Positions 8,865-55,045 of a stretch of 64,000 bases of DNA are shown here, piece after piece. The DNA comes from Gambelia wislizenii (taxonomy: Eukaryota; Chordata; Lepidosauria; Squamata; Crotaphytidae): positions 63,253,501-63,317,500 of the forward strand of contig JAUMIR010000001.1 in assembly GCA_030847615.1 (NCBI GenBank), given 5' to 3'. The position numbers and the translations under genes are program-made. How positions within the stretch are numbered: the first letter of the stretch is position 1; each line of letters begins with the position of its first letter. The notes under the pieces were generated by a model. That model did not search any database. It was not told the DNA's origin and saw nothing but the letters and a program-made list of their open reading frames with translations.

Positions 8865-9756
8865 TTGCAGCTACAGAATCGATTCGAAGCCCTTTCCCTT
8901 ATCAAGGAAAATGAGGAAGAACAGCATGCACAGACTTCAGGGGTAGAGCAGGGGACCTTGAGAGGACCACCGCAAGGAAAAGCAGCTGCGAAGCCTCGGC
9001 GGAGGCGTGTGGTGGTGGTGGTGGGGGGACTCCTTGCTGCGGGGTACAGAAGCAGTGGTATGTGGGCCTGACAAGATGACTCGGGAGGTGTGTTGTCTCC
9101 CTGGGGCAAAGATCCGTGATGTGATGGAGCGGCTAACAAGACTTGTCAAGCCTACGGATCATTACCCCTTCCTTTTGGTCCATGTGGGAACCAACAATAC
9201 AGCAAGGCACAGCTTTCCCAAGATCAGAAGAGATTATGAGGCCCTGGGGAGGAAGCTGAAAGAAATGGACGCACAGGTTGTCATCTCGTCTCTTCTGCCA
9301 GTTGAAGGGCATGGTCCAAGAAGGGAGAGGAAAATAGCTGACGTAAACAACTGGCTCCGTAGATGGTGTCGCCGAGAACAAATTGGATTCTTGGATCATG
9401 GACTGCGCTTCCATGAGGGGGGACTTCTAGCAAGAGATGGGGTGCATCTTACGACAGTTGGAAGAAATATTTTTGCCAACAGTCTCAAGAATTTGATCAG
9501 GAGGGCTTTAAACCGAGTCAAATCGGGGAGGGAGACAGTATTCTGGAAGGCAAAAGGGCTGGAGAAAATAGTCAAACTGTCACAGAGGGAACAAGGCAAA
9601 CAGCACAAGGACCCAACAGTGGGAGGCAAAAATACTTGCAGAGGCAGCAAGCAAAGGGAACACATGGTCTTCGATGTCTCTACACTAATGCACAGAGCAT
9701 GGGAAATAAGCAAGATGAACTTGAACTCCTCGCACTACACAACAAATATGATATAA
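8865..9756 (+). pseudogene. CR1 ORF1, SGNH-hydrolase (esterase) protein, one frameshift
   Basis: The N-terminal part (8,865-9,025) is Glu/Gln-rich, coiled-coil-like, and ends in a basic RRRR patch. The frame then shifts inside the GTGGTGGTGG/GGGGGG run near 9,010-9,030 and continues from 9,007 in another frame with GDSLLRGTE (nucleophile Ser at 9,031), VHVGTNNTA (block III, near 9,187) and DGVHLT (catalytic Asp/His, near 9,436-9,447). These are the catalytic blocks of the SGNH esterase known from ORF1 of CR1-clade LINEs. The esterase is thought to act on membranes or lipids in the ribonucleoprotein, but its exact role is unproven. The frame runs about 120 bp into the start of ORF2. All three catalytic blocks are intact. 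Confidence 0.85.
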
Positions 9757-12257
9757 TAGGCATTACTGAAACCTGGTGGGACGAGTCTCATGATTGGAAT
9801 GTAGGAATAGAGGGGTATAACCTTTATAGGAGAAACAGGCCAAACAGGAAAGGAGGAGGAATAGCATTATATGTCAGGGATATTTACACCAGTGAAGTGA
9901 TCCATGACATCAATACTGGAAGCCAGGTGGAGAGCATCTGGATAAAAATTAAAGGGGAAGGAAACAACAGGGATGTTATTGTGGGACTCTACTACAGACC
10001 CCCAAATCAGACGGAGGAATTGGATGATGCCTTTCTAGAACAGATGAACACACATGCAGAAAGGAGACATGTAGTAGTGATGGGTGACTTCAACTATCCT
10101 GATATTTGCTGGCAATCTAACTCAGCCAAAACTTCAAGGTCTAGCAAATTCCTTACATGCCTAGAAGACAATTTCATGGTCCAAAAGGTGGAAGAGGCAA
10201 CAAGGGGGTCAGCTATTTTAGATCTGATCCTAACCAACAGAGATGACCTGGTTAATGGGGTGCAAGTGGTGGGATCCTTAGGTGAGAGTGATCATGTTCT
10301 CCTGGAGTTTGTTATGCAATGGAAAGGAGAAGCCAGGCATAGTCAGACACGCATTCTTGACTTTAGGAGAGCTGATTTCAATAAACTCAGGGAAATACTG
10401 GGGGTGATCCCATGGTCAGGAATACTAAAAGAGAAGAGACCTCAAGACGGATGGGACTTTCTCAAAAGGGAGATACTGAAGGCACAATTTCAAACAGTAC
10501 CATTGAGGAAGAAAAATGGGAGGTGTCTCAAGAAACCAGGAAGGATGACTAAAGAAATATCAACAGAGCTAAGTTTTAAACGGAACATGTATGGGAAATG
10601 GAAAAGGGGGAAATCACCAAAGAAGAATTCAAACAGATAGCGAACACGTGTAGGAGTAAAGTCAGAAAAGCTAAAGCGCAGAATGAGCTCAGGCTTGCTA
10701 GGGAGGTTAAGAACAATAAAAAGGGTTTTTTCGGGTATGTCCGCAGCAAAAGGAGGAAGAAGGAAATGATAGGGCCACTACGTGGAGAAGATGGCAAAAT
10801 GCTAACAAGGGACAGAGAGAAGGCAGAATTACTCAACACCTTCTTTGCCTCAGTGTTTTCAGAAAAGGAAAAGGAGGACCAACTTGAGGAGAATGGAACA
10901 GAGGACACAATAGAGCAAATCCAGCTCAAAATAAGTAAAGAGGTAGTACAGGAATACCTTCTTAATCTAAATGAATTTAAATCTCCAGGACCAGATGAAC
11001 TACATCCAAGAGTATTAAAAGAGCTGGCAAATATAATCTCAGAGCTATTGGCAATAATCTTTGAGAACTCCTGGAGAACAGGAGAAGTCCCAGCAGACTG
11101 GAGGAGGGCAAACATTGTTCCCATCTTCAAAAAGGGGAAAAAAGAGGATCCCAACAATTATTGTCCAGTTAGTCTGACATCAATACCAGGGAAGATTCTA
11201 GAGCAGATCATTAAACAGAGAGTCTGTGAACATTTAGAAGGCAATGCCATAATCACAAAAAGTCAACATGGGTTTCAGAGAAACAAGTCATGCCAGACTA
11301 ATCTGATCTCTTTTTTTGATAAAGTTACCAGCTTGGTAGATGAAGGGAATGCTGTGGACATTGCATACCTTGATTTCAGTAAGGCCTTTGACAAGGTTCC
11401 CCATGACATTCTTGCAAACAAGCTTGTAAAATGTGGCCTAGACAAGTTAACTGTTCAATGGATTTGTAATTGGTTGACCGGTGGAACCCAAAGGGTGCTC
11501 AGCAGTGGCTCCTCTTCGTCTTGGAAAGATGTGACCAGTGGGGTGCCACAGGGTTCTGTCCTGGGCCCAGTGCTATTCAACATCTTTATCAATGACTTGG
11601 ATGAGGGAATTAGTGGCATACTTATCAAATTTGCAGATGACACCAAATTAGGAGGAGTAGCTAATACCCTAGAGGACAGGATCAAAATTCAGAATGACCT
11701 GGATAGACTGGAGAGCTGGGCCAAAGCTAACAAAATGAAATTCAATACGGAGAAATGTAAGGTACTGCATTTAGGGCGGAAAAAATGAAATGCATAAATA
11801 TAGGATGGGAGAGACCTGGCTGAATGAGACCACGTGCGAAAGGGATCTAGGAATCCTAGTAGACCACAAGTTGAACATGAGCCAACAGTGCGATGCGGCA
11901 GCTAAAAAGGCCAATGCGATTTTGGGCTGTATCAATAGAAGTATAGTGTCTAGATCAAGGGAAGTAATAGTGCCACTCTATTCTGCCTTGGTCAGACCTC
12001 ACTTAGAATACTGTGTCCAGTTCTGGGCACCACAATTAAAAAAGGATATTGATAAATTGGAGCGTGTCCAGAGAAGGGCAACTAAAATGGTGAAAGGTCT
12101 GGAAACAATGCCTTATGAGGAGAGACTTAGGGAGCTGGGTATGTTTAGCCTGGAAAAAAGACGGTTAAGAGGCGATATGATAGCCCTGTTTAAGTATTTG
12201 AAGGGATGTCACGCTGAGGATGGAGCAGGCTTGTTTTCTGCTGCTCCAGAGACTTGA
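9636..12257 (+). pseudogene. CR1 ORF2, endonuclease-reverse transcriptase, two frameshifts
   Basis: The first segment (9,636-10,640) is the apurinic-type endonuclease: NAQSMGNK, GITETWWDES, GGGIALYVRD, GLYYRPPNQ, VVMGDFNYPDICW and GESDHVLLEF in order. The second (10,598-11,788) is the reverse transcriptase: [48 protein letters not shown] and the catalytic FADD at 11,630-11,641. The third (11,790-12,257) is the CR1 C-terminal region with [13 protein letters not shown] and [11 protein letters not shown]. Frame changes fall at the AAAAGGGGG run near 10,601-10,609 and the A6 run near 11,780-11,786. The protein would nick target DNA and prime reverse transcription of its own RNA. All catalytic residues I can see are present. 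Confidence 0.93.
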
Positions 12258-14655: not shown

Positions 14656-16136
14656 CAGTTGTCCCTCCACATTCGCGAACTTGACATTCGCGGTTTCGGT
14701 TATTCGCGGTTTTGGGAGGGCCCCCCCGAGCCCCCCCAAAACCGCGACACGGGGCCTCCAGAGGCCCCGTGAAAGACCTGGGGAGGGGTGGGGAGGCCTT
14801 CGCGGGACGCCCGGAGGCCCTCCGGAGGCCCCGCGAAGGCCTGGGGAGGGAGGGAGGGCCGGTGAGGCCTCCGCGGGGCCTAGGAAGGCCCCGCGAAGGC
14901 CTGGGGAGGGAGGGAGGGCCGGTGAGGCCTCCGCGGGGCCAAGGAAGGCCCCGCGAAGGCCCGGGGAGGGTGGGAGGGAGGGCCGGTGAGGCCTCCGCGG
15001 GGCCTAGGAAGGCCCCGCGAAGGCCCGGGGAGGATGGGAGGGAGGCCCGGTGAGGCCTCCGCGGGGCCTAAGAAGGCCCCGCGAAGGCCCGGGGAGGGTG
15101 GGAGGGAGGGCCGGTGAGGCCTCCGCGGGGCCTAAGAAGGCCCCGCGAAGGCCCGGGGAGGGTGGGAGGGAGGGCCGGTGAGGCCTCCGCGGGGCCTAAG
15201 AAGGCCCCGCGAAGGCCCGGGGAGGGTGGGAGGGAGTGCCGGTGAGGCCTCCGCGGGGCCTAGGAAGGCCCCGCGAAGGCCCGGGGAGGGTGGGAGGGAG
15301 TGCCGGTGAGGCCTCCGCGGGGCCTAGGAAGGCCCCGCGAAGGCCCGGGGAGGGTGGGAGGGAGTGCCGGTGAGGCCTCCGCGGGGCCTAGGCAGGCCCC
15401 GCGAAGGCCCGGGGAGGGTGGGAGGGAGTGTCGGTGAGGCCTCCGCGGGGCCTAAGAAGGCCCCGCGAAGGCCCGGGGAGGGTGGGAGGGAGGGCCGGTG
15501 ATGCCTCCGTGGGGCCTAGGAAGGCCCCGCGAAGGCCCGGGGAGGGTGGGAGGGAGGGCCGGTGAGGCCTCCGCGGGGCCTAGGAAGGCCCCGCAAAGGC
15601 CCGGGGAGGGTGGGAGGGAGAGCCGGTGAGGCCTCCGCGGGGCCTAGGAAGGCCCAGCGAAGGCCCGGGGAGGGTGGGAGGGAGGGCCGGTGAGGCCTCC
15701 GCGGGGCCTAGGAAGGCCCCGCGAAGGCCCGGGGAGGGTGGGAGGGAGAGCCGGTGAGGCCTCCGCGGGGCCTAAGAAGGCCCCGCGAAGGCCCGGGGAG
15801 GGTGGGAGGGAGGGCCGGTGAGGCCTCCGCGGGGCCTAGGAAGGCCCCGCGAAGGCCCGGGGAGGGAGAGCCGGTGAGGCCTCCGCGGGGCCTAGGAAGG
15901 CCCCGCGAAGGCCCGGGGAGGGTGGGAGGGAGGGCCGGCGAGGCCTCCGCGGGGCCTAGGAAGGCCCCGCAAAGGCCCGGGGAGGGTGGGAGGGAGAGCC
16001 GGCGAGACCTCCGCGGGGCCTAGGAAGGCCCCGCGAAGGCCTGGGGAGGGAGGGGGAGGGGTGTAGTTATTCGCGGATTTTTCACATTCGCGGGGGTCCG
16101 CGGAACGGAACCCCCGCGAATGTGAAGGGACGACTG
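14656..16136. mobile_element. Tigger/pogo-type non-autonomous element carrying a minisatellite
   Basis: Terminal inverted repeats CAGTTGTCCCTCCACATTCG and, on the other strand, CAGTCGTCCCTTCACATTCG bound the element. TA dinucleotides flank both ends (14,654-14,655 and 16,137-16,138), as expected for the Tc1/mariner-pogo group. The inner flanks repeat TTCGCGG motifs. It is about 1,480 bp, whereas its relative at 28,276-28,489 is 214 bp; the difference is the GC-rich minisatellite. It has no transposase, so it would depend on one supplied in trans. Confidence 0.9.
14797..16050. repeat. 64-bp GC-rich minisatellite, 19 units, G-quadruplex-like
   Basis: The anchor GGTGAGGCCTCCGCGGGGCC starts at 14,861 and recurs, with a few base changes, at 14,921, 14,985, 15,049 and onward to 16,001. 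That gives 19 anchors with spacing 60, then 64, one 56 and two more 64. Each unit contains GGCCTAGGAAGGCC and CGCGGGGCC...GGCCCCGCG inverted repeats, plus a G-run block of the form GGGGAGGGTGGGAGGGAGGG that fits a G-quadruplex pattern. Predicted open frames through it (Gly/Arg/Pro-rich) are by-products of the repeat, not genes. Confidence 0.97.
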
Positions 16137-38470: not shown

Positions 38471-39308
38471 CAGGAGTTTGTGGATTTCAATAGCTTCTCT
38501 GTGCATTCTGACATGATAGTCGTTGGCCTGATCCAGAATTTCGGTGTTTTTAAATAACATTTTGTGTCCAGGTTATAACATGTTCTGCTACTGCTGATCT
38601 TTCAAATATTGTTGTTGCTAACCCTTTTGGTCATCACAAACTTTATTATTTCCAGTTCTAATTAAACTTTCTGCCCTTATTTCAAAAAGAAAGCAGCTTA
38701 CAGAGAAGAAGTTATCACAGCTGGGACCAAGATTCCTTTAATTCCAAGTGTTACAAAATAAAATTTAAAACCAGAAGTTGCATAAAGAAAGAGAAGATTT
38801 ATAGGTCTACTGTCCATAAAAAGCTGTTTTCCAGATCTTCAGGCAAGCAGATGACTGGAGGGCATAATGAAAGCCCAGGTCTCCCAGACAGTTTCACTGA
38901 CTGCTCCTTGCAATTTCCAGGGTGCCAGTTACACAACAAAAATTGTTACGGGGCTTACCATGACATTGTGATCCTGAATCCATCCCTCGCTGTTTATATG
39001 ATTTTTGTCACTGATCTGGATATCCTGGGTGATCCTGTGACTGATATTTACACGTCCAAAGTTCCGTTTTTTATTTTTGGTACCGCGACGCTTTATCCCA
39101 TGCTTTTATTGTTTACACATGGTTAGCATACCTGGATTTTTTTTTTTTTTGACTGTCAATCAGGGATGCGATTACTTGTTTTTTCAATCTTTGGGCTATG
39201 TGTTTCCGGTTCTTCTTCCCGTCACGGATGCTGCGATTGGCTACAGTTTAAACAAAGAAGGACATCACATGTCCTTTTCATGCACCTCTTGTTCTTCTTT
39301 ATGGCAAC

Positions 39309-40929
39309 ATGGAGGCGGCCACATCGGCTGCTCTGGCTACTGCTGCCCATTTGCGATTATCTCTTTTAGCTCTTAAGAGGCGGGTAATAATCATGCATAG
39401 GAGAAGGATGTTTCTTATTTTCCTTTTACTTCTCTGTTTCCAAGCAATGGAAACAGCAATTTTTCGACCACAGGTTATGTACTTTGCTGCCGTGGAACCC
39501 CCAGAGGTTCTGAGGCATGTTCGCCCCGACCGGAGGAAGCGATGGTGGTGGGTGTACCCGACAACAGATGGGTGGTGGGAGAAATTTGTGATGAACATCT
39601 GGTCGGACGAATGGTGGATACTGTACTTCAGGATGCCTCGGTTCCTCTTCATGCACCTTGCCGAGTTACTCTGTCCAGAGATTGCTAAGTTGGACACGAA
39701 CATGAGAAAAGCCATCCCTGTTGAGAAGAGATTCACTATTGCCATTTTCCTTCTCGCCCACCGCTGCTCATATGGTGCAGTTTCCCACCTGTTCGGTGTC
39801 AGAATAGCAACTGTGTGTAAGATTTTTGTGGAGGTTGTCCTCGCTATGGAGAAGTTACTTCTTAAGTGGACAGTCTTCCTGGGAGATCACAGAAAGGTAT
39901 TTTTTTTTCTTTTATTTTATGTGCTTGTGAAAAATCGTCTAATTGCATCAATTGCTATGTGTAAAAATAATGAACTATGCAGTCCCGTATGTGATACCAT
40001 AATGATAACCATTACAGGTTCCCCATATGTTGTTATTAAGGAAATTGGGATCATGCCACAGGATATTGCAATTCTTATGTCTGAACATATATGTTTAATC
40101 GAAAACTCGTTTTTCCTTTTTTTATATTATTTTATTTAAGAGAACATTTTACAAAAACTCGTTTTTCCGTGCTCTCATTGTTCCCTTTTCTTTGCATTTG
40201 ATATTTTTCAGGTAATGGATTCCTTTGCAGCAATGGGATACCCACAAGTGGTCGCTTGCCTGGATGGATGCCATGTTAATATAATCCCCCCCATCCACCA
40301 AGGGGACGAATTTATCAACAGGAAAAATAGATAAAGCATTCTTCTGCAAGGGACTTGTGACCACAGGGGGGTTTTATTGACACAGAGATTGGTTGGAGCA
40401 GGAAGAATCATGACGCCTGAATGTTAAGGAACTCTGGTTATTTTGAGACTATGGAGGCTGGCATATTTGTCCCTGGTAATCCTACATTGACAATTATGGG
40501 GAAGCAGGTAGTACCTCTAACTCTGGTAGATGGTGCATATCCCATAAGGAATTGGCTGCTGATACCTTTTAGGGGGACCACAAATCCCAAACAGAGACTG
40601 TACAATAGGTACCATAACAAAATTCGATCATTGGTGGAGAGGTGCTTCGGGCATTTGAAATCGAGGTGGAGGGCATTAAAATACTTTTTGAGGTTGCTGA
40701 GGAGAATGTATGTTCTGTAATATGTGCATGTGTTATTCTACACAATATATGTGAAACAAAATGTAGTATCCTTGACGATCCTCAATGGCATGTGCAGAGG
40801 TTTGTCCTGGACACGCTGGTAGCACCGATGGTTAATAATGATGCTGCAGAGAAGGAGCGGGGGGAGGCGGTACGCAATGCTTTAAAAGAATATTTTTGGC
40901 TTGAACATCACTGGGGAGGTGGGGAATAA
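39309..40929 (+). pseudogene. Harbinger transposase (HARBI1-like nuclease), two exons, decayed
   Basis: Exon 1 (39,309-39,896) contains PDRRKRWWWVYPTT, YFRMPRFLFMHLAELL and the helix-turn-helix-like AIFLLAHRCSYGAVSHLFGV. It ends at an AAAG|GTATTT donor; the acceptor is TTTTTCAG at 40,204-40,211. Exon 2 holds the catalytic triad: Asp in CLDGCHVNI (40,263-40,265), Asp in LVDGAYPIRNW (40,529-40,531) and Glu in SLVERCFGHLKSRW (40,637-40,639), then VICACVILHNICE. Lesions: TAA at 40,332, a one-base frame change near 40,365-40,372, TGA at 40,418 and a frame change near 40,680-40,690. AATAAA follows at 40,985. It would cut and paste DNA through terminal-repeat recognition with a Myb-like partner. As written it cannot make a full protein. 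Confidence 0.92.
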
Positions 40930-41433
40930 TGTAATGAATGGTTTGTCTTATTATCAATGTCTTTAATTAATTGACAGTCTGCTTAATAAAGCATTGGCAT
41001 TCTTAACGGAGTCTGCATTTCTTTGCCCTACTTAATTCGATTCATACTTTACCAAAGGGAACACTAGCATTGTCTTTTTACTGTAGAATTGTTAATGTAT
41101 AGAATAAATCTTAAGGGCAGTTGAAGTGCACCCTAGAAAGTAGGTCAGACTGGATACAAGTTTCTTTTAAAACAAGCAGCCAGAACCGATACATTGTTGT
41201 GGTTAAAGGAATTGGCGGGCTTTTGCAGGGATTACTCTTTCTGGTAAAGGATCCAGGACTGCCGAATTCCTTTGGGGAGTATCCTCTGGTAATTAACCAA
41301 TCAATTAGCCAAAACTATTTAAATTTTAAAAAATTAAGCCTATTCATAACATCATAGGCTTCTTTTAAAAATGAAATGGTCAACACGAAAACTTATGAAC
41401 TCGAGTTTTCGTATCCCGCCACATGGCGTTACG

Positions 41434-42340
41434 ATGGCCGAAGGGGGGAGAGGACATGTCCGGCCGGGTCGGCACATCGCCTACTGGGGCACCAGGGAGA
41501 CCAACCTGATGTTGGAATCCCTGGCCCAGCAGGCCGGTGCACTGGACCGGCTGGTGCAGTCCTCTAACCAGAGGAACCACAACTTCTTTTTGGAGGCAGC
41601 GCGGTTCCTCCGGTCGAGGGGCTACATACGTACTGGCCTCCAATGCCTCTCCAAATTTAAGACCCTGAAGGGTAAATTCTTTGTGGCATTGGAGGCCAGT
41701 AATGGTAGCCCCCCCCAAAGGCGGCCACCTTTTTATGCCATCCTGCACGACCTGTGGGTCCGTGTAGGACGGCCAAGCTCATGCGACAGGCTCCCCAGAG
41801 GTAAGTTTCGCCACGGCATCTATGGTGCCAAGTTGTGTGTGCCCGTGTGAGTGTGTGTGTGTTCTCCTCTGGATGCTGCTAATTTTATTCTGTCTATGTT
41901 TTGTTATAGCAGTCCGGATCCAGAGACGGGTTGCTGGGGAGCCCGTTTCAGATTCCTCCTCTGATGAGGATGATCATGCAGGCCCAGCACTGGCTGCACC
42001 ACCACCCCCCCAGGTTAGTTTCATTGCAGTAACTTTTTGTCATAGATATGGGGGGCATAGCATAAGAAATATTATTGTTTAGTACTGAAAACTTAAAGCT
42101 ATGCTTAATTCATTTAAAGGTCCCCAGGAGGCCACAGCCCAGCTGGCTGGGCTTAACATTATCGCCAGAATTGAGGAGCTAGGTAAATATGTTTAAGTAG
42201 AATTTTTTTTTTAAAAAAAAGGATAATCTGCTATGAACATAGATCAGTTGATTCTAATTAAGAATTACTTTTTTTCCAATACAGGGAGGAGTCTAAGAGA
42301 GGAGATTAGGGACCTGGTGAGGAGGGTGCAAGCCTTGTAA
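41434..42340 (+). CDS. Myb/SANT-like DNA-binding protein 1 of the Harbinger element, four exons
   Basis: Proposed exons: 41,434-41,800, 41,910-42,013, 42,128-42,182 and 42,285-42,340, joining in phase to about 193 residues. Donors are GTAAGT, GTTAGT and GTAAAT; acceptors end TTATAG, CCCCAG and ATACAG. The N-terminal domain has the Myb/SANT (trihelix-like) pattern: IAYWGTRETNLMLESLAQQA, FLRSRGYIRTGLQCLSKFKT, then PPFYAILHDLWVRVGRP. A Ser/Asp/Glu-rich linker and a short C-terminal helix (IIARIEELG, SLREEIRDLVRRVQAL) suggest dimerisation. In-frame ATG also exists at 41,371; I prefer 41,434 because the conserved region starts soon after. AATAAA at 42,654. Presumably it binds the element's subterminal DNA and the transposase. 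No lesion is visible. Confidence 0.8.
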
Positions 42341-43151
42341 GAGAGGCTTGCATTGTAAATAACGTATATATTTAACTTGTTCATTTGTAAATACTTCTTT
42401 TTGTTTATAGTGTGTGATATTTCAATTTGTATATAGAGTAAATATTGTACATCATCCCCTCCAGTCCTAAGTGTTTGTCCTTCCTTGTTCTATGCATCCC
42501 ATCTGTTGTGTTGTTTCCTTTGCCATGTAAATACTCTAAATCATGTAAATATTGTTTTCCGTGTAAATCTGTAAGTATGTGAAATTTTATGTCTGTAAAT
42601 ATGTGAATATGTTTTTAAAAATGTAAATATTTATTTTCAGATTATTTTTAAAAAATAAACTGTTAATTGTTTGTACATATTGTTTGTACTCTTTATTTCC
42701 CATAAATTCACTATCTCCCTTCTATAAGCTGTAAAAAAAATTCTTAAAAGAAAACTGTTTTAACAGGGTACCTATACAAGGTAGAGTAGTGTAAGATACA
42801 CAGAAATTAACTATGTAAAAACTTAACATTTTTTACTCCCCACAAGTAAGGGTAAATCAATTGCCACTGATAATAGAGCTACAGTGACAGGGGAATTTTT
42901 TTTAAATTAACCTTGCTAGTCTCCTGGGGTTTAAGAACTTCCAGGTAAACTTTCTGTCGGTGTTGTATGATTATTCTCATGTGAATTCTCCTTATCTTCC
43001 TCATCTACATAGTTAGAGTTACCATTTCTTTTCTCCACTACACTTTTTTTTAGCATTTCCCATGGACTTAATGTGAGTTACCAAGTCCCCAAACAGATCA
43101 TTTTGTCTTTGTATTTCTTTGAGCATCCACTCTGATTCATCCACGGAATGC

Positions 43152-44739
43152 TCATAGATTTTTTTCTAGGTACCCTTGCAAAGACATTGTCTGTTCTTTA
43201 GATATTTTCTCAATTTGAGACACAAACATTTCAGCTGTTGATCTTGAATTCACCATCAAATCATTCACATCAGAAGAACGCTTCTTCCTACAAAATAAGG
43301 CCAACCTCTCAGCGGGGGACAATGTGGCAGTAGGATTACTCAAATCTGCAACTGAAGAAAATTGGAAATAAAAAATCAGTAACATAGTTTATTACAGTAC
43401 TGACAAAGATAAAAGTATTATCCAGCCCTGTAACGATTAGATACATACCATTACATGCAGGTGTGGTTGACCACACAGTGTCAATCTCTTCTACCATGAC
43501 CGTGTTGGTACCCTCAGTTTCAATGACTGCCAAGGTTTCAGTATTCTCACCAGTTAAGGTTAAAGTTACAGTAGATTCATCAGATCCCTGGGTGCCAGAA
43601 CCATCTGGATAAAAATGAAAAGTAAAGGAAAATAAGAACGTTTGTTAATAGAAGAAATCAAAGCACTTTAAATAATCAACAGCACTTCCGCGCCGCTTGT
43701 GGAAGAGGTAAACAAGTAATTGGCTTCTTTGTTTATGGCTACATCCAGAGACGCCATTGCAAACGCGCCAAGGTGCATGCATCATTTCACAGTCCCAGGG
43801 CACACAAACAAAAGTGCGCCATTTGCCTTTTACAGCCTTCATTTGCAAAATAAAGGGGAAACCACAGACCAAGGTATCACCACTTCAGGGCATATTGGTA
43901 AATATGGCAAAGAGTTTCTGAATAGGTAGAAGTCTATGGACTAATGCAACATTTCATCATTCAGCACGGGAATTTAAAGATTATATTTGGATGTTGTGAA
44001 AACAGAAAATTAAATATCCGTGTTTTCACTTTGATTCCAAACATTTCTTGTAATGGCAGCAAAAAGCTAAAGCTGTAATTTTAGCAGCCTACACAGTAAA
44101 GACACATAGCATGCATATCAGTAATGGGTTAGCCATGAACATTTATAGAACTTCTACTTGGCTAAACAATGAAATTCAAGAACAGGATTAATTGAGTTTT
44201 CACATACTTCTTAATGCTTAAAGAAAATTAACAGAAAACTTACCTAGGGGCTGTGAGAACAATTCCTCAGAGAACCCCTGAAGCATCTCTTGGAATGAGG
44301 GAGGGAATCCCACATCTTCTTTGATGAGGGGGGCATGATGGGGAACCTCTGACCTACATGGAACACACACAATGTCGGTGGTGCTCCCCAGCCGCTTCGG
44401 GTGGTAGTTGGCATCACTGCCCAGAATGGCATGCAGTTCTTTATAAAAGGGCATGGTTTCCACATTGTTGCTACTTTTAGAGTTGTGGTCATTTACCTGG
44501 CAGTAATTCTTGCGCATCAGTTTCGTCTTCGTACGGCACTCTTCTGCAGTGCGATCATGCCCTTTGGTTTTTATTTCAGCAGCAATCTTTTCAAACAGGT
44601 CAATATTTCTGTGGGACCCCCTCAGCTGTTCCTGCACCTTTTCCTCGCCCCATATGGCCAAAAGGTCTATGGTTTCGTTGTAGGACCAGGAGATCCCACG
44701 GCCGACTTTCCTGGGACGAGGTGCGCTTTTGGCATCCAT
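43152..44739 (-). CDS. Myb/SANT-like DNA-binding protein 2 of the Harbinger element, three exons
   Basis: Proposed exons on the minus strand: 44,739-44,244, 43,604-43,449 and 43,351-43,152, joining in phase to about 283 residues. Donors are GTAAGT and GTATGT; acceptors end TATCCAG and TCTTCAG. Residues ~17-110 carry a Myb/SANT-like domain: ISWSYNETIDLLAIWGEEKV, IAAEIKTKGHDRTAEECRTK, KLMRKNY and ETMPFYKELHAILG. The middle exon is Thr/Glu/Val-rich; the last has SPAERLALFCRKKR and a helical C-terminus (FVSQIEKISKEQTM). A reversed AATAAA lies at 42,692-42,697. It differs clearly from protein 1 in sequence and exon layout, so it is not a recent duplicate. Role inferred as a DNA-binding partner of the transposase. 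No lesion is visible. Confidence 0.8.
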
Positions 44740-44954
44740 CGCTTTAACTGCTCAGGTAAATGGCGAAGAGAACAATGGAGAGGTATCTTCTTCAAATTTT
44801 GGTATGGCCAGAAAGGGGGCAGGTACACCTCCTACTTACTGGCCAGAGCTCGCCCATGGACAGGGCAATTTCCGGGCATCTCCTGTGCCCGTGATATGTT
44901 GTCACGGGCAGTTTACATTTCCAATTTTCCGCATCCCCCCATGACTTTTTTAAA

Positions 44955-45259
44955 AACCAGCACAACCTGCGGGATTTAAAGTCCCGCAGGTTGAGAGACA
45001 AATGGTGGCCGCCCTTCCGAAAAACATGTGTCCAACCCGATGTACGTGTAAACTGCCAGGGATCAACACGAATTCTTCCCGGGACATTTTCATCGTGTAA
45101 ATGGCACCTGGCACAACCCGCGGGATTGAAAGTCCTGTGGGTTGAGAGACAAACGGTGGACCCCCTTCCGAAAAACACGTGTCCGACCCGATGTACGTGT
45201 AAACTGCCAGGGATCGACAGGAATTCTTCCCGGGACATTTTCATCGGGTAAACGGCACC
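44955..45259. repeat. 151-bp tandem duplication at the Harbinger right end
   Basis: Two units offset by 151 bp share CACAACC(T/C)GCGGGATT, GTTGAGAGACAAA, CTTCCGAAAAACA(T/C)GTGTCC and TGTACGTGTAAACTGCCAGG. Each ends in a terminal-repeat-like TTTTCATCG(T/G)GTAAA(T/C)GGCACC (at ~45,106 and 45,259). Each also holds an inverted repeat around CTGCGGGATTTAAAGTCCCG. The unit thus contains a complete spare right terminus. Confidence 0.9.
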
Positions 45260-45262
45260 CAG

Positions 45263-46040
45263 AACAACTGCTAGGTTAAGGAGCCCTCTTGGGCGATCCC
45301 TTTGATCTTTCCCTTGATCCAGGAAAATAATTGTTGACCAGAGCTTACCTCCAGCTGGTGAAAACACTCTCATTGCTACTTTCCCCTACAGAACCCCACT
45401 AAAGGAAAGGCATAAACTCTCTATCTTCTCCCAGAAGTCATTTGTGCTAACTGTTCATGGCCAGTTTAAATTATACAAATATCACTTTCTAAATCCAAAT
45501 TTTGCTCTCCACATCCATGTACACTTTGCATATATATGTGAGCTTGAACATTATACTCTATGCATCTGAAGTGCTGGATTTTTATCTATGAAAAGCTCGT
45601 GCTAAAATAAACCAATTTAAAAAACACAAAGATATGCATGCAAAACACATATATCCCAGCAGAACCATTAACAGAGATTGGCAAAGAAATATATACAATG
45701 AGTTTGAGACTATAAGTACAAAGACTTCAAACAGCTGTCACAGCAGCACTGTCCAGTACTGCTGGTATGGAGGAATGATACAGAGTGTGGTGAGGATGGG
45801 ACAAAGGATTCTACCAATACATTTGTACATTACAGTCATGTGCCGTATAGTTGCCCATTCCTACATACACGGTTTATACCATCTTTCCCAGGGTGATCGT
45901 GACTTTATATCTATCTCACACTATGCTTCTCACACAGGATATTGTCAACATCAGTACATTGTCAACACCAACTGTGTCTTGTTGGCTGCCACTACTGACC
46001 CCTGCTGGCAACAGCTCTTTACAATATAAAATTTACAATG
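45263..46040. other. no recognised gene
   Basis: Flank of the Harbinger element. The open frames have no recognisable motif. Confidence 0.4.
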
Positions 46041-52858: not shown

Positions 52859-54285
52859 ATCTCTCTCTCTCTCTCTCTGGCTTTTCTTCGCAAACGAAGA
52901 TTCAGGAAGAACTCATCCCGCACTTTCTGCAAGCACGCTAATGACTAAAAAGGCCAATCCGAGATAAACAAATTGGGTTGCAGAAAGCACAGCAGAAGGT
53001 CTCCTTGGGTGATGTTTCTGGGTTTTGATTCTTTCTGTGTTGTCGTTTCTCTTCAAGACTTGTTCGGCATGAGTTCTCAAATAAGGCTGCAGCATTGTGG
53101 ATAGTGCGTCTCCATGCCTCCCTATGTGAGACCAGGGCGGACCATTGTTGGTGATCAATTTGGCCGAGCCTGAGATGTTGTTTCAGGGAGTCCTTGTATC
53201 GCTTTTTTGGAGCCCCCCTCTTACGCTGACCTGTGGCGAGTTCACCATAGAGTATTGTTTTGGGGAGGAGATGGTCCTCCATCATAGAAACGTGCCCTGC
53301 CCAGTGCAGCTGTGTTCTCAATATCATGGCCTCAATGTTGGTGATCCCTGCTTGCTCAAGTATAGCAACATTCGTCACATAGTCAGTCCAGTGTATATTT
53401 AGGATTGTGCATATACAGCGCTGATGAAAGTGTTCAAGGAGTTGTAAGTGGTGGTGATAGGTGACCCATGTTTCAGATTCATAAAGCAGAATAGACAGTA
53501 GAATGGCCCTATAAACACTGATTTTTGTGCTTCGTCTCAGGTGTCTATTACTCCAGACTCTTTTGTGAAGTCTTCCAAATGCACTATATGCCTTTGCTAA
53601 TCTGTGATTGATCTCTTTGTTAATCTTGGCATCTGAGGAGATGTTGCTTCCCAGTAGGTGAACTGCTGAACGGACTTGAGCACAGATTTGCTGATGGCAA
53701 TGTGGGGATGGTGATGTTCATCCTGTGGTGCAGGCTGGTAAAGAACTTCCGTTTTCTTCAGGTTGACTTCCAGCCCAAACAGCTCTGCAGATGTTGCGAA
53801 GCAGGATGTTAGGTGCTGCAGAGCTGCTTCTGTGTGGGCAACAAGGGCAGCATCATCAGCGAAGAGCAGCTCAAGGACTAGATGGATTAGAGTCTTAGTG
53901 TGAGCCCTCAGACGGCTTAAGTTAAACAAGCTACCATCAGTACGGTAACATATATAGATGCCGTATTCTTCTTCAAGCTATGCCATAGCCCTTTGGAGTT
54001 AGAGCAAGAACACAACTTTGCTTCACTCCATTAGTTATTAGAAAGGGCTCTGAAAGAGCACCACCACATCTCACTTGACTGCGCTGGCCCTCGTGTAGCA
54101 AGATAATCATTTTAAGGAATTTGGGGGGACATCCTAGTCTTTCCAGGATCTGCCACAGACCTTTTCTACTCACAGTGTTGAAGGCTTTAGTGAGGTTGAC
54201 AAATTTTACATAGAGACCCTTGTTCTGCTCCCTACATTTTTCTTGCAGTTGCCTAAGGGCAGGGATATATAAGGCAGGCATATAT
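52859..54285 (-). mobile_element. non-LTR retrotransposon, RT core to 3' end (RTE/Vingi-like)
   Basis: The minus strand encodes reverse-transcriptase motifs YVKFVNLTKAFNTVSRKGLW (54,281 downwards), ITNGVKQSCVLAL and ELLFADDAALVAH (catalytic FADD). Then follow RTQLHWAGHVSMMEDHLLPK, YGELATGQRKRGAPKKRYKD and a terminal zinc-finger-like CAFCNPICLSRIGLFSH. It ends with a perfect CTTCG/CGAAG hairpin, AAAAGCCAGAGAG and a (GA)n tail that extends the microsatellite at 52,859-52,880. Several frameshifts and stops make it inactive. It is the longest of four copies; the exact clade name is uncertain. Confidence 0.85.
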
Positions 54286-54289
54286 AGGG

Positions 54290-55045
54290 AGAGGCATTCC
54301 TTGTCATTCTCTGTGAGCCTGATGAGGCTGTAGAGTCACAGGAGGAGGGGGCCATGGCAGGGAACAGCCCTGCAGGGACCCTGCACAGTTTAATATACAT
54401 CTGTGCCATCAGGGAAACCTACCAACCTGGACGCTCAAGCAGAAGAAGAGCCTGGTCTGAGTGGGTTGGCATTAGGTCCAGCAGAGAGTCCTGCTACTCA
54501 GATAAGGAAGAGGAAGAGGAGAGGGACTTACCTCCACCATCGTATACCCAGGAGTGAGCTCAAAAGGAGGCTCAAAGGAGGTCTTTGAGAATTTATGAGA
54601 AGAACTTGTTCATTAAGAAACACTTGGCAAAGCCTTAATTGTTTTATATAGGCTGGAAGAGTCAATGGAGGCTTTGTCAGAGATCAACTGATCTCCCTGG
54701 AGAAAGCTTCCTGTTGATTTCAGTGCCTGAATCCTTGCTGCCTTGACTCATGCCTTGACCTTGGACTGTTCCTGACCACCCTGTTGCCTGATCCTCCTGA
54801 CCCATGGACTGGCTTCTGGACAACTAAGCCTTGACCTTTGGACTGTATTCTGGACTCTTCTCTGTGTGCCTTCTTGCCTGTATTGCTGCTTCTCCAAGAA
54901 AGGGAACCTTGCTTGTTCTGAACTTTATCTCACTCCCCCTAATTAACTATCACTGGGACTTGGCTGCTTTCCCAGCCCTTGCTTATCCTGCTGGCATTTT
55001 GAGCTGTTTTTCTGGACATTCCTTTAAATATCAAGACCCTCAGAC
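54290..55045. other. unassigned, repeat-like
   Basis: Contains TATATAAGGCAGGCATATATAG and a later stretch with repeated CTTGACC/TGGACTG words (54,740-54,850) of the sort seen in LTR retroelement flanks. I cannot name it. Confidence 0.3.

Follow-up and report, generated by a model that had tools for sequence, protein, structure and literature searches.

The described DNA transposons closest to the one reported here belong to the PIF/Harbinger (PHIS) superfamily. The NuwaI group of this superfamily has CWG duplications, a DDE transposase and, in most autonomous candidates, one Myb/SANT open reading frame (ORF); its mean consensus is about 4.46 kb, its terminal inverted repeats (TIRs) of 12-61 bp usually start with GGG, and the hosts listed in 2015 were 12 bony fish and four invertebrates (PMC4482050). 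The Myb-like protein of Harbinger3_DR, an interaction partner of its transposase, recognises a 9-bp subterminal motif and is required for the nuclear entry of both proteins (PMC9710019), and the Harbingers of teleosts consist of one transposase and one Myb-like protein (PMC9179366). In this paper we describe a PIF/Harbinger element of a lizard, located at positions 38921-45259 (6,339 bp) of a 64,000-nucleotide (nt) stretch of Gambelia wislizenii DNA (assembly GCA_030847615.1, contig JAUMIR010000001.1, positions 63,253,501 to 63,317,500, forward strand), which we call the window.

The element contains a broken transposase gene and two open Myb/SANT-like genes, gene A and gene B. It resembles NuwaI in its CAG (CWG) flanks, DDE transposase, Myb/SANT protein and inverted ends, but differs in having two Mybs, a length of 6.3 kb, a squamate host and, if CAG is the duplication, a start with GGT (PMC4482050). 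Instead of the two ORFs of most NuwaI candidates, a transposase and one Myb/SANT protein, we found three genes, two of them Myb/SANT. With canonical PIF/Harbinger elements such as Harbinger3_DR it shares the transposase, the Myb-like partner and a motif near the ends, but it departs from the published picture of that group, with its TWA targets and single Myb-like gene (PMC9710019, PMC9179366, PMC4482050). Harbinger-Snek of sea kraits is likewise a squamate Harbinger with a transposase and a Myb-like protein, but it is described with two proteins and as closest to sea urchin elements (PMC8437027). The addition of a gene to a Harbinger-like element has a parallel in PHISTA (TET/JBP) and HarbingerS (SET), and the PHISTA families have three proteins; however, their added gene is an epigenetic enzyme, their hosts are fungi and oomycetes, and a Myb/SANT domain is absent from all third proteins of the TET-bearing families (PMC12730594). 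No description of a Harbinger with two Myb genes was found in the available portions of the open-licence literature searched, Repbase being outside its scope. We classify the element as a variant within PIF/Harbinger (PHIS), NuwaI-like by its flanks, and it likely represents a three-gene squamate lineage consisting of the transposase, A and B. Its genes, with exons given by position and proteins in amino acids (aa), are the following:

39309-39896, plus strand: transposase exon 1 (alignment, GT-AG intron)
40212-40929, plus strand: transposase exon 2, encoding the DDE_Tnp_4 domain and carrying two stops and two frame changes (alignment, Pfam)
40985-40990, plus strand: AATAAA, potential transposase polyadenylation signal (consensus match only)
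41434-41800, plus strand: gene A exon 1, Myb/SANT-like (trihelix) domain, with an upstream in-frame ATG at 41371 (PF13837, E 2e-9 for the 214-aa form)
41910-42013, plus strand: gene A exon 2, acidic and proline-rich (ORF and splice reading)
42128-42182, plus strand: gene A exon 3 (ORF and splice reading)
42285-42340, plus strand: gene A exon 4, encoding the C-terminal tail up to the stop (ORF and splice reading)
42654-42659, plus strand: AATAAA 3' of gene A (consensus match only)
42692-42697, minus strand: AATAAA 3' of gene B, with another at 42635 (consensus match only)
43152-43351, minus strand: gene B exon 3, encoding the C-terminal region up to the stop (SPAERLA stretch common with the Sceloporus protein P0001, 1 of 500 shuffles)
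43449-43604, minus strand: gene B exon 2 (ORF and splice reading)
44244-44739, minus strand: gene B exon 1, Myb/SANT-like (trihelix) domain (PF13837, E 5.5e-17)

Six introns are used in these gene models, of which gene A has three, gene B two and the transposase one, and each of them is GT-AG. An initial annotation of this DNA had placed the Myb splice junctions at 41,800/41,910, 42,013/42,128, 42,182/42,285, 44,244/43,604 and 43,449/43,351, and these coordinates proved right, every one being GT-AG. It had also described two open multi-exon Myb/SANT-like genes on opposite strands, which agrees with what we observed: both proteins match Pfam Myb_DNA-bind_4 (PF13837) above the cut-off of 27 bits (gene A, 38.1 bits, E 2e-9; gene B, 62.4 bits, E 5.5e-17), and when the joined exons of either gene were subjected to mononucleotide shuffling, 0 of 3000 sequences remained open. 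The Myb/SANT partner of PIF/Harbinger (PHIS) elements is present twice. The two genes converge between about 42,635 and 42,700.

The transposase matched DDE_Tnp_4 with E 1e-24 when an X was placed at each lesion, and an unbroken piece of 99 aa was sufficient for a DDE_Tnp_4-type match with E 5.7e-11; the type of transposase expected of PIF/Harbinger (PHIS) is present. A database search that scored only those 7,999 candidates with most shared words gave 16 relatives at E <= 1e-3. Thirteen of these carry an organism name (Sceloporus, Rhineura, Elgaria, Salvator, Heteronotia, Eublepharis, Phrynosoma), and all these genera are squamates. The best relative, P0002 from Sceloporus, was 50% identical over 80%. 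In a tree of the window transposase and all 16 database hits, the former grouped with P0014 and four proteins from Sceloporus in a clade with a local support of 0.978. No confirmed relative was found in the prokaryote genomes searched with the transposase, or in the viral contigs searched with the transposase, gene B and gene A alignments. One of the transposase relatives, P0005 from Salvator merianae, is listed with a KRAB domain ahead of the Harbinger transposase, and in its alignment a Tyr replaces the Asp of LVDGAYP, which we take to be the second catalytic residue. This protein is possibly a host fusion gene or a gene-model artefact.

The lesions of the transposase are two in-frame stops and two frame changes, exactly as the initial annotation had it. 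Both frame changes fall at homopolymer runs and, for this reason, an assembly error is possible for those two lesions. If both were assembly errors, the copy would be less decayed than it appears; we consider this quite unlikely, and homopolymer errors do not account for the two in-frame stops.

Gene A lies on the plus strand, the same as the transposase, and its four exons encode 193 aa if translation starts at the ATG at 41434, or 214 aa if it starts at the one at 41371. We prefer the former because the A-type piece of P0014 likewise starts with MA. P0014 (Phrynosoma platyrhinos, JD844_023912), one of the transposase relatives, consists of a Harbinger transposase first and an A-type Myb domain last, the latter beginning at MAAWQVPF. 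Gene A is 46% identical to it over 56 aa, with 52.4 bits, z 23.3 and 0 of 1000 shuffles reaching the score; for gene B against P0014, z was 2.5 and 28 of 1000 shuffles did so. Another species thus has an A-type Myb 3' of a transposase, with the gene order and strand seen in the window. The finding of an A-type domain behind a related transposase indicates that gene A is probably native to the element lineage, as judged from sequence comparison, and not a chance nest, and it supports the three-gene Harbinger variant that the initial annotation had proposed.

Nesting of elements is common in genomes, and gene A might in principle have come from another element inserted into an ordinary two-gene Harbinger. 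In a scan for pairs of TIR and target-site duplication (TSD), none around gene A or gene B beat 20 shuffles at duplication lengths of 2, 3, 4 and 8; this speaks against a nested element, although the scan has low power, the element's own ends not beating it either. With P0014 showing the same arrangement, we judge such an insertion to be very improbable.

The transposase models P0015 (Sceloporus) and P0012 (Eublepharis) continue into helix-like tails, which are perhaps exons of a downstream partner gene. The tails of P0004, P0012 and P0015 were tried as further cases of gene A and none matched it beyond shuffles; some of them match each other or P0014 (2 to 18 of 500 shuffles) through low-complexity or helix-like stretches.

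Gene B, on the minus strand, has three exons (44739-44244, 43604-43449 and 43351-43152) that encode 283 aa. Its sole database relative at E <= 1e-3 was P0001 from Sceloporus undulatus (LOC121925552), with 41% identity over 82% and 55% in the alignment of exon 1; P0007, considered as a second match, was at chance level (E 0.18). P0001 and the transposase P0002, both from Sceloporus, are listed on contigs of equal size (275,632,209) and are probably on one chromosome, which is linkage at the chromosome level only. The best identities of the transposase (50% over 80%, P0002), gene A (46% over 56 aa, P0014) and gene B (55% in exon 1, P0001) are of one order.

A different history could be envisaged, in which a two-gene Harbinger made of the transposase and A gained B, maybe together with the right end, by recombination with another Harbinger, so that the three-gene form would be limited to this copy or to a small subfamily. 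Only A has been found attached to a transposase elsewhere, as this history would have it. Against it, P0001 comes from Sceloporus, whose transposases share the clade of the window transposase, and from a contig of the same listed size as that of P0002; moreover, the low-power scan mentioned above gave no TIR/TSD pair around B that beats shuffles. The ends of the element, dealt with below, also bear on this point.

The initial annotation had called the two Mybs unrelated. This turned out to be wrong: the alignment of the Myb domains of gene A and gene B scored above all 1000 shuffles (z 10.2), and the first intron is in phase 1 in both genes. By their sequences, A and B are distant homologues within one domain family. 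In the fold predictions, the mean predicted local distance difference test (pLDDT) score was 52.6 for gene A exon 1 and 44.5 for gene B exon 1, and both predicted folds contain helices whose order would be compatible with a trihelix domain. A PDB fold search with gene A returned no matches at E <= 0.001; therefore, the structural evidence carries little weight. A joint profile of A, B and P0001 matched the plant trihelix protein GT-1 (2ebi) with E 9e-7, and gene A alone gave nothing relevant.

The features at the ends of the element are the following, those to which no strand is assigned being given without one:

38918-38920: CAG, presumed target-site duplication, left (sequence)
38921-38996, plus strand: left inverted end, comprising GGTGCCAGTTACAC plus a further block common to the right end (end alignment)
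39047-39054, plus strand: subterminal TTTACACG, left (motif chosen post hoc among shared words)
39111, plus strand: subterminal GTTTACAC, left (motif chosen post hoc among shared words)
44960-45110: inner unit of a 151-nt tandem duplication at the right end; it has a TIR-like end of its own (repeat analysis)
45045, 45094 and 45196 (span 45045-45203), minus strand: TTTACACG, right, inverted relative to the left site (word search)
45111-45261: outer copy of the 151-nt unit, with 89% identity to the inner copy (the element stops at 45259)
45260-45262: CAG, presumed target-site duplication, right (sequence; the right flank resembles the repeat unit at 45259-45268)

Directly inside the CAG flanks, the termini GGTGCC...GGCACC form imperfect inverted repeats; over its first 14 nt, the left end has 11 of 14 matches with the outer right end and 13 of 14 with the inner right copy. 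When the 150-nt ends were aligned locally, the first 32 nt of the left end aligned with the inner right unit (0 of 1000 shuffles) and a further stretch of the left end, nt 52-76, aligned with the outer right unit (6 of 1000 shuffles). By these alignments the element has the terminal inverted repeats of PIF/Harbinger (PHIS), and the inverted ends and CAG flanks that the initial annotation had noted are borne out at 38918-38920 and 45260-45262. The TWA target duplication of canonical PIF/Harbinger elements, which Harbinger3_DR itself presumably has, was not found, the flanks here being CAG. The right end comprises two 151-nt units in tandem, of which the outer one fits the left end worse than the inner one does. 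This duplication, and the poorer fit of the outer unit, would be in keeping with a gain of B along with a foreign right end, yet the left and right ends align better than nearly all shuffles, and we hold that history to be unlikely on the whole. Bases 45259-45268 are alike in 9 of 10 positions to 44957-44966, at the start of the 151-nt unit, and Tandem Repeats Finder (TRF) extends the array to 45268. TTTACACG is found at both ends, with one further occurrence in the 5.77-kb interior, both strands being counted.

Several observations weigh against the reading of the element as one copy of a three-gene lineage with NuwaI-like flanks. The DNA evidence comes from one copy (n=1). The database search with gene A gave no match at E <= 1e-3, the A-type domain is attached to one of the 16 transposase hits (P0014) and the B-type domain to none, and P0014 is an automatic gene model whose tail was spotted by reading the 16 hits. 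The presumed 3-bp target duplication consists of a CAG on both sides of this one copy; the scan for a 3-bp duplication with 14-nt inverted ends was not significant alone, 3 of 30 shuffled pairs reaching 11 of 14, and the right CAG might be part of a third, cut-off repeat unit instead of a target duplication. As for the subterminal sites, TTTACACG was picked post hoc, its occurrences at 45045 and 45196 are a single site duplicated with the tandem units, the one at 45094 is inside the inner TIR-like end, and one type of motif, not two, was found at the ends.

The initial annotation had further claimed that the two Mybs are preserved during the decay of the enzyme, which is not established by our results. 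The transposase has four lesions in 1,306 nt and the Mybs none in 1,434-1,497 nt of coding sequence; under equal rates, the chance of this split is 0.047-0.052. The contrast is marginal and the weaker for the fact that two of the four lesions may be assembly errors. Most simply, the Mybs of this copy are open because decay has so far been confined to the transposase. One or both Mybs could otherwise be retained by host selection, as in an early co-option, or for the supply of Myb protein in trans. The absence of lesions in A and B would fit this, and host genes derived from Harbinger proteins exist (PMC9710019), but with a contrast so slight, and with two of the four lesions at homopolymers, we find it improbable.

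Elsewhere in the window, no other copy of the element was found at E <= 1e-3. Another mobile element, a non-long terminal repeat (non-LTR) retrotransposon which we take to be CR1, lies at 9417-12254 on the plus strand, with an endonuclease and a reverse transcriptase (PF03372, PF00078) in three overlapping open frames. A G+C-rich 64-bp minisatellite occupies 14826-16054 (19.5 copies, 95% matches), and open frames of a second non-LTR reverse transcriptase are found at 52941-54335 on the minus strand, with a PF00078 score of 22.4 bits, below the cut-off of 29.6.

Taken as a three-gene Harbinger, the element would be a decayed member of a squamate PIF/Harbinger lineage with NuwaI-like CAG flanks. 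The working form would consist of a DDE transposase, then the same-strand Myb A and then the opposite-strand Myb B at the far end, and A and B may derive from an old duplication or recombination inside the lineage. By analogy with the Myb-like protein of Harbinger3_DR and its 9-bp subterminal motif, the TTTACACG sites are candidate Myb binding sites; the Myb proteins might bind such TTTACACG-like sites at both ends and would bring the transposase to the nucleus and to the ends of the element. The two Mybs may split the work or act as a pair, and the second one could contribute through divided labour at the ends, as a member of a pair, as a regulator or as a redundant copy. That they divide the labour is a tentative suggestion, which we would not favour at present. 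The same caution applies to a stricter form, an obligate dual-partner Harbinger, in which the two divergent Mybs would bind different parts of the ends, maybe paired by their C-terminal tails, and transposition would need a three-protein complex; this is conceivable, though doubtful. Dual-partner transposition, supply in trans and co-option, all of which had been put forward in the initial annotation, would each be compatible with two Myb genes in one element.

How the Myb partner chooses the ends of a Harbinger, and which other roles it has, is still poorly known; for one such protein type, SANT1 of melon, DNA-affinity sequencing has been carried out (PMC11161486). A lineage with two divergent Myb partners would let nuclear import and end binding be separated experimentally. 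Furthermore, with each insertion a lizard genome would receive two genes for DNA-binding proteins of Myb type, a point relevant to the origin of host regulators.

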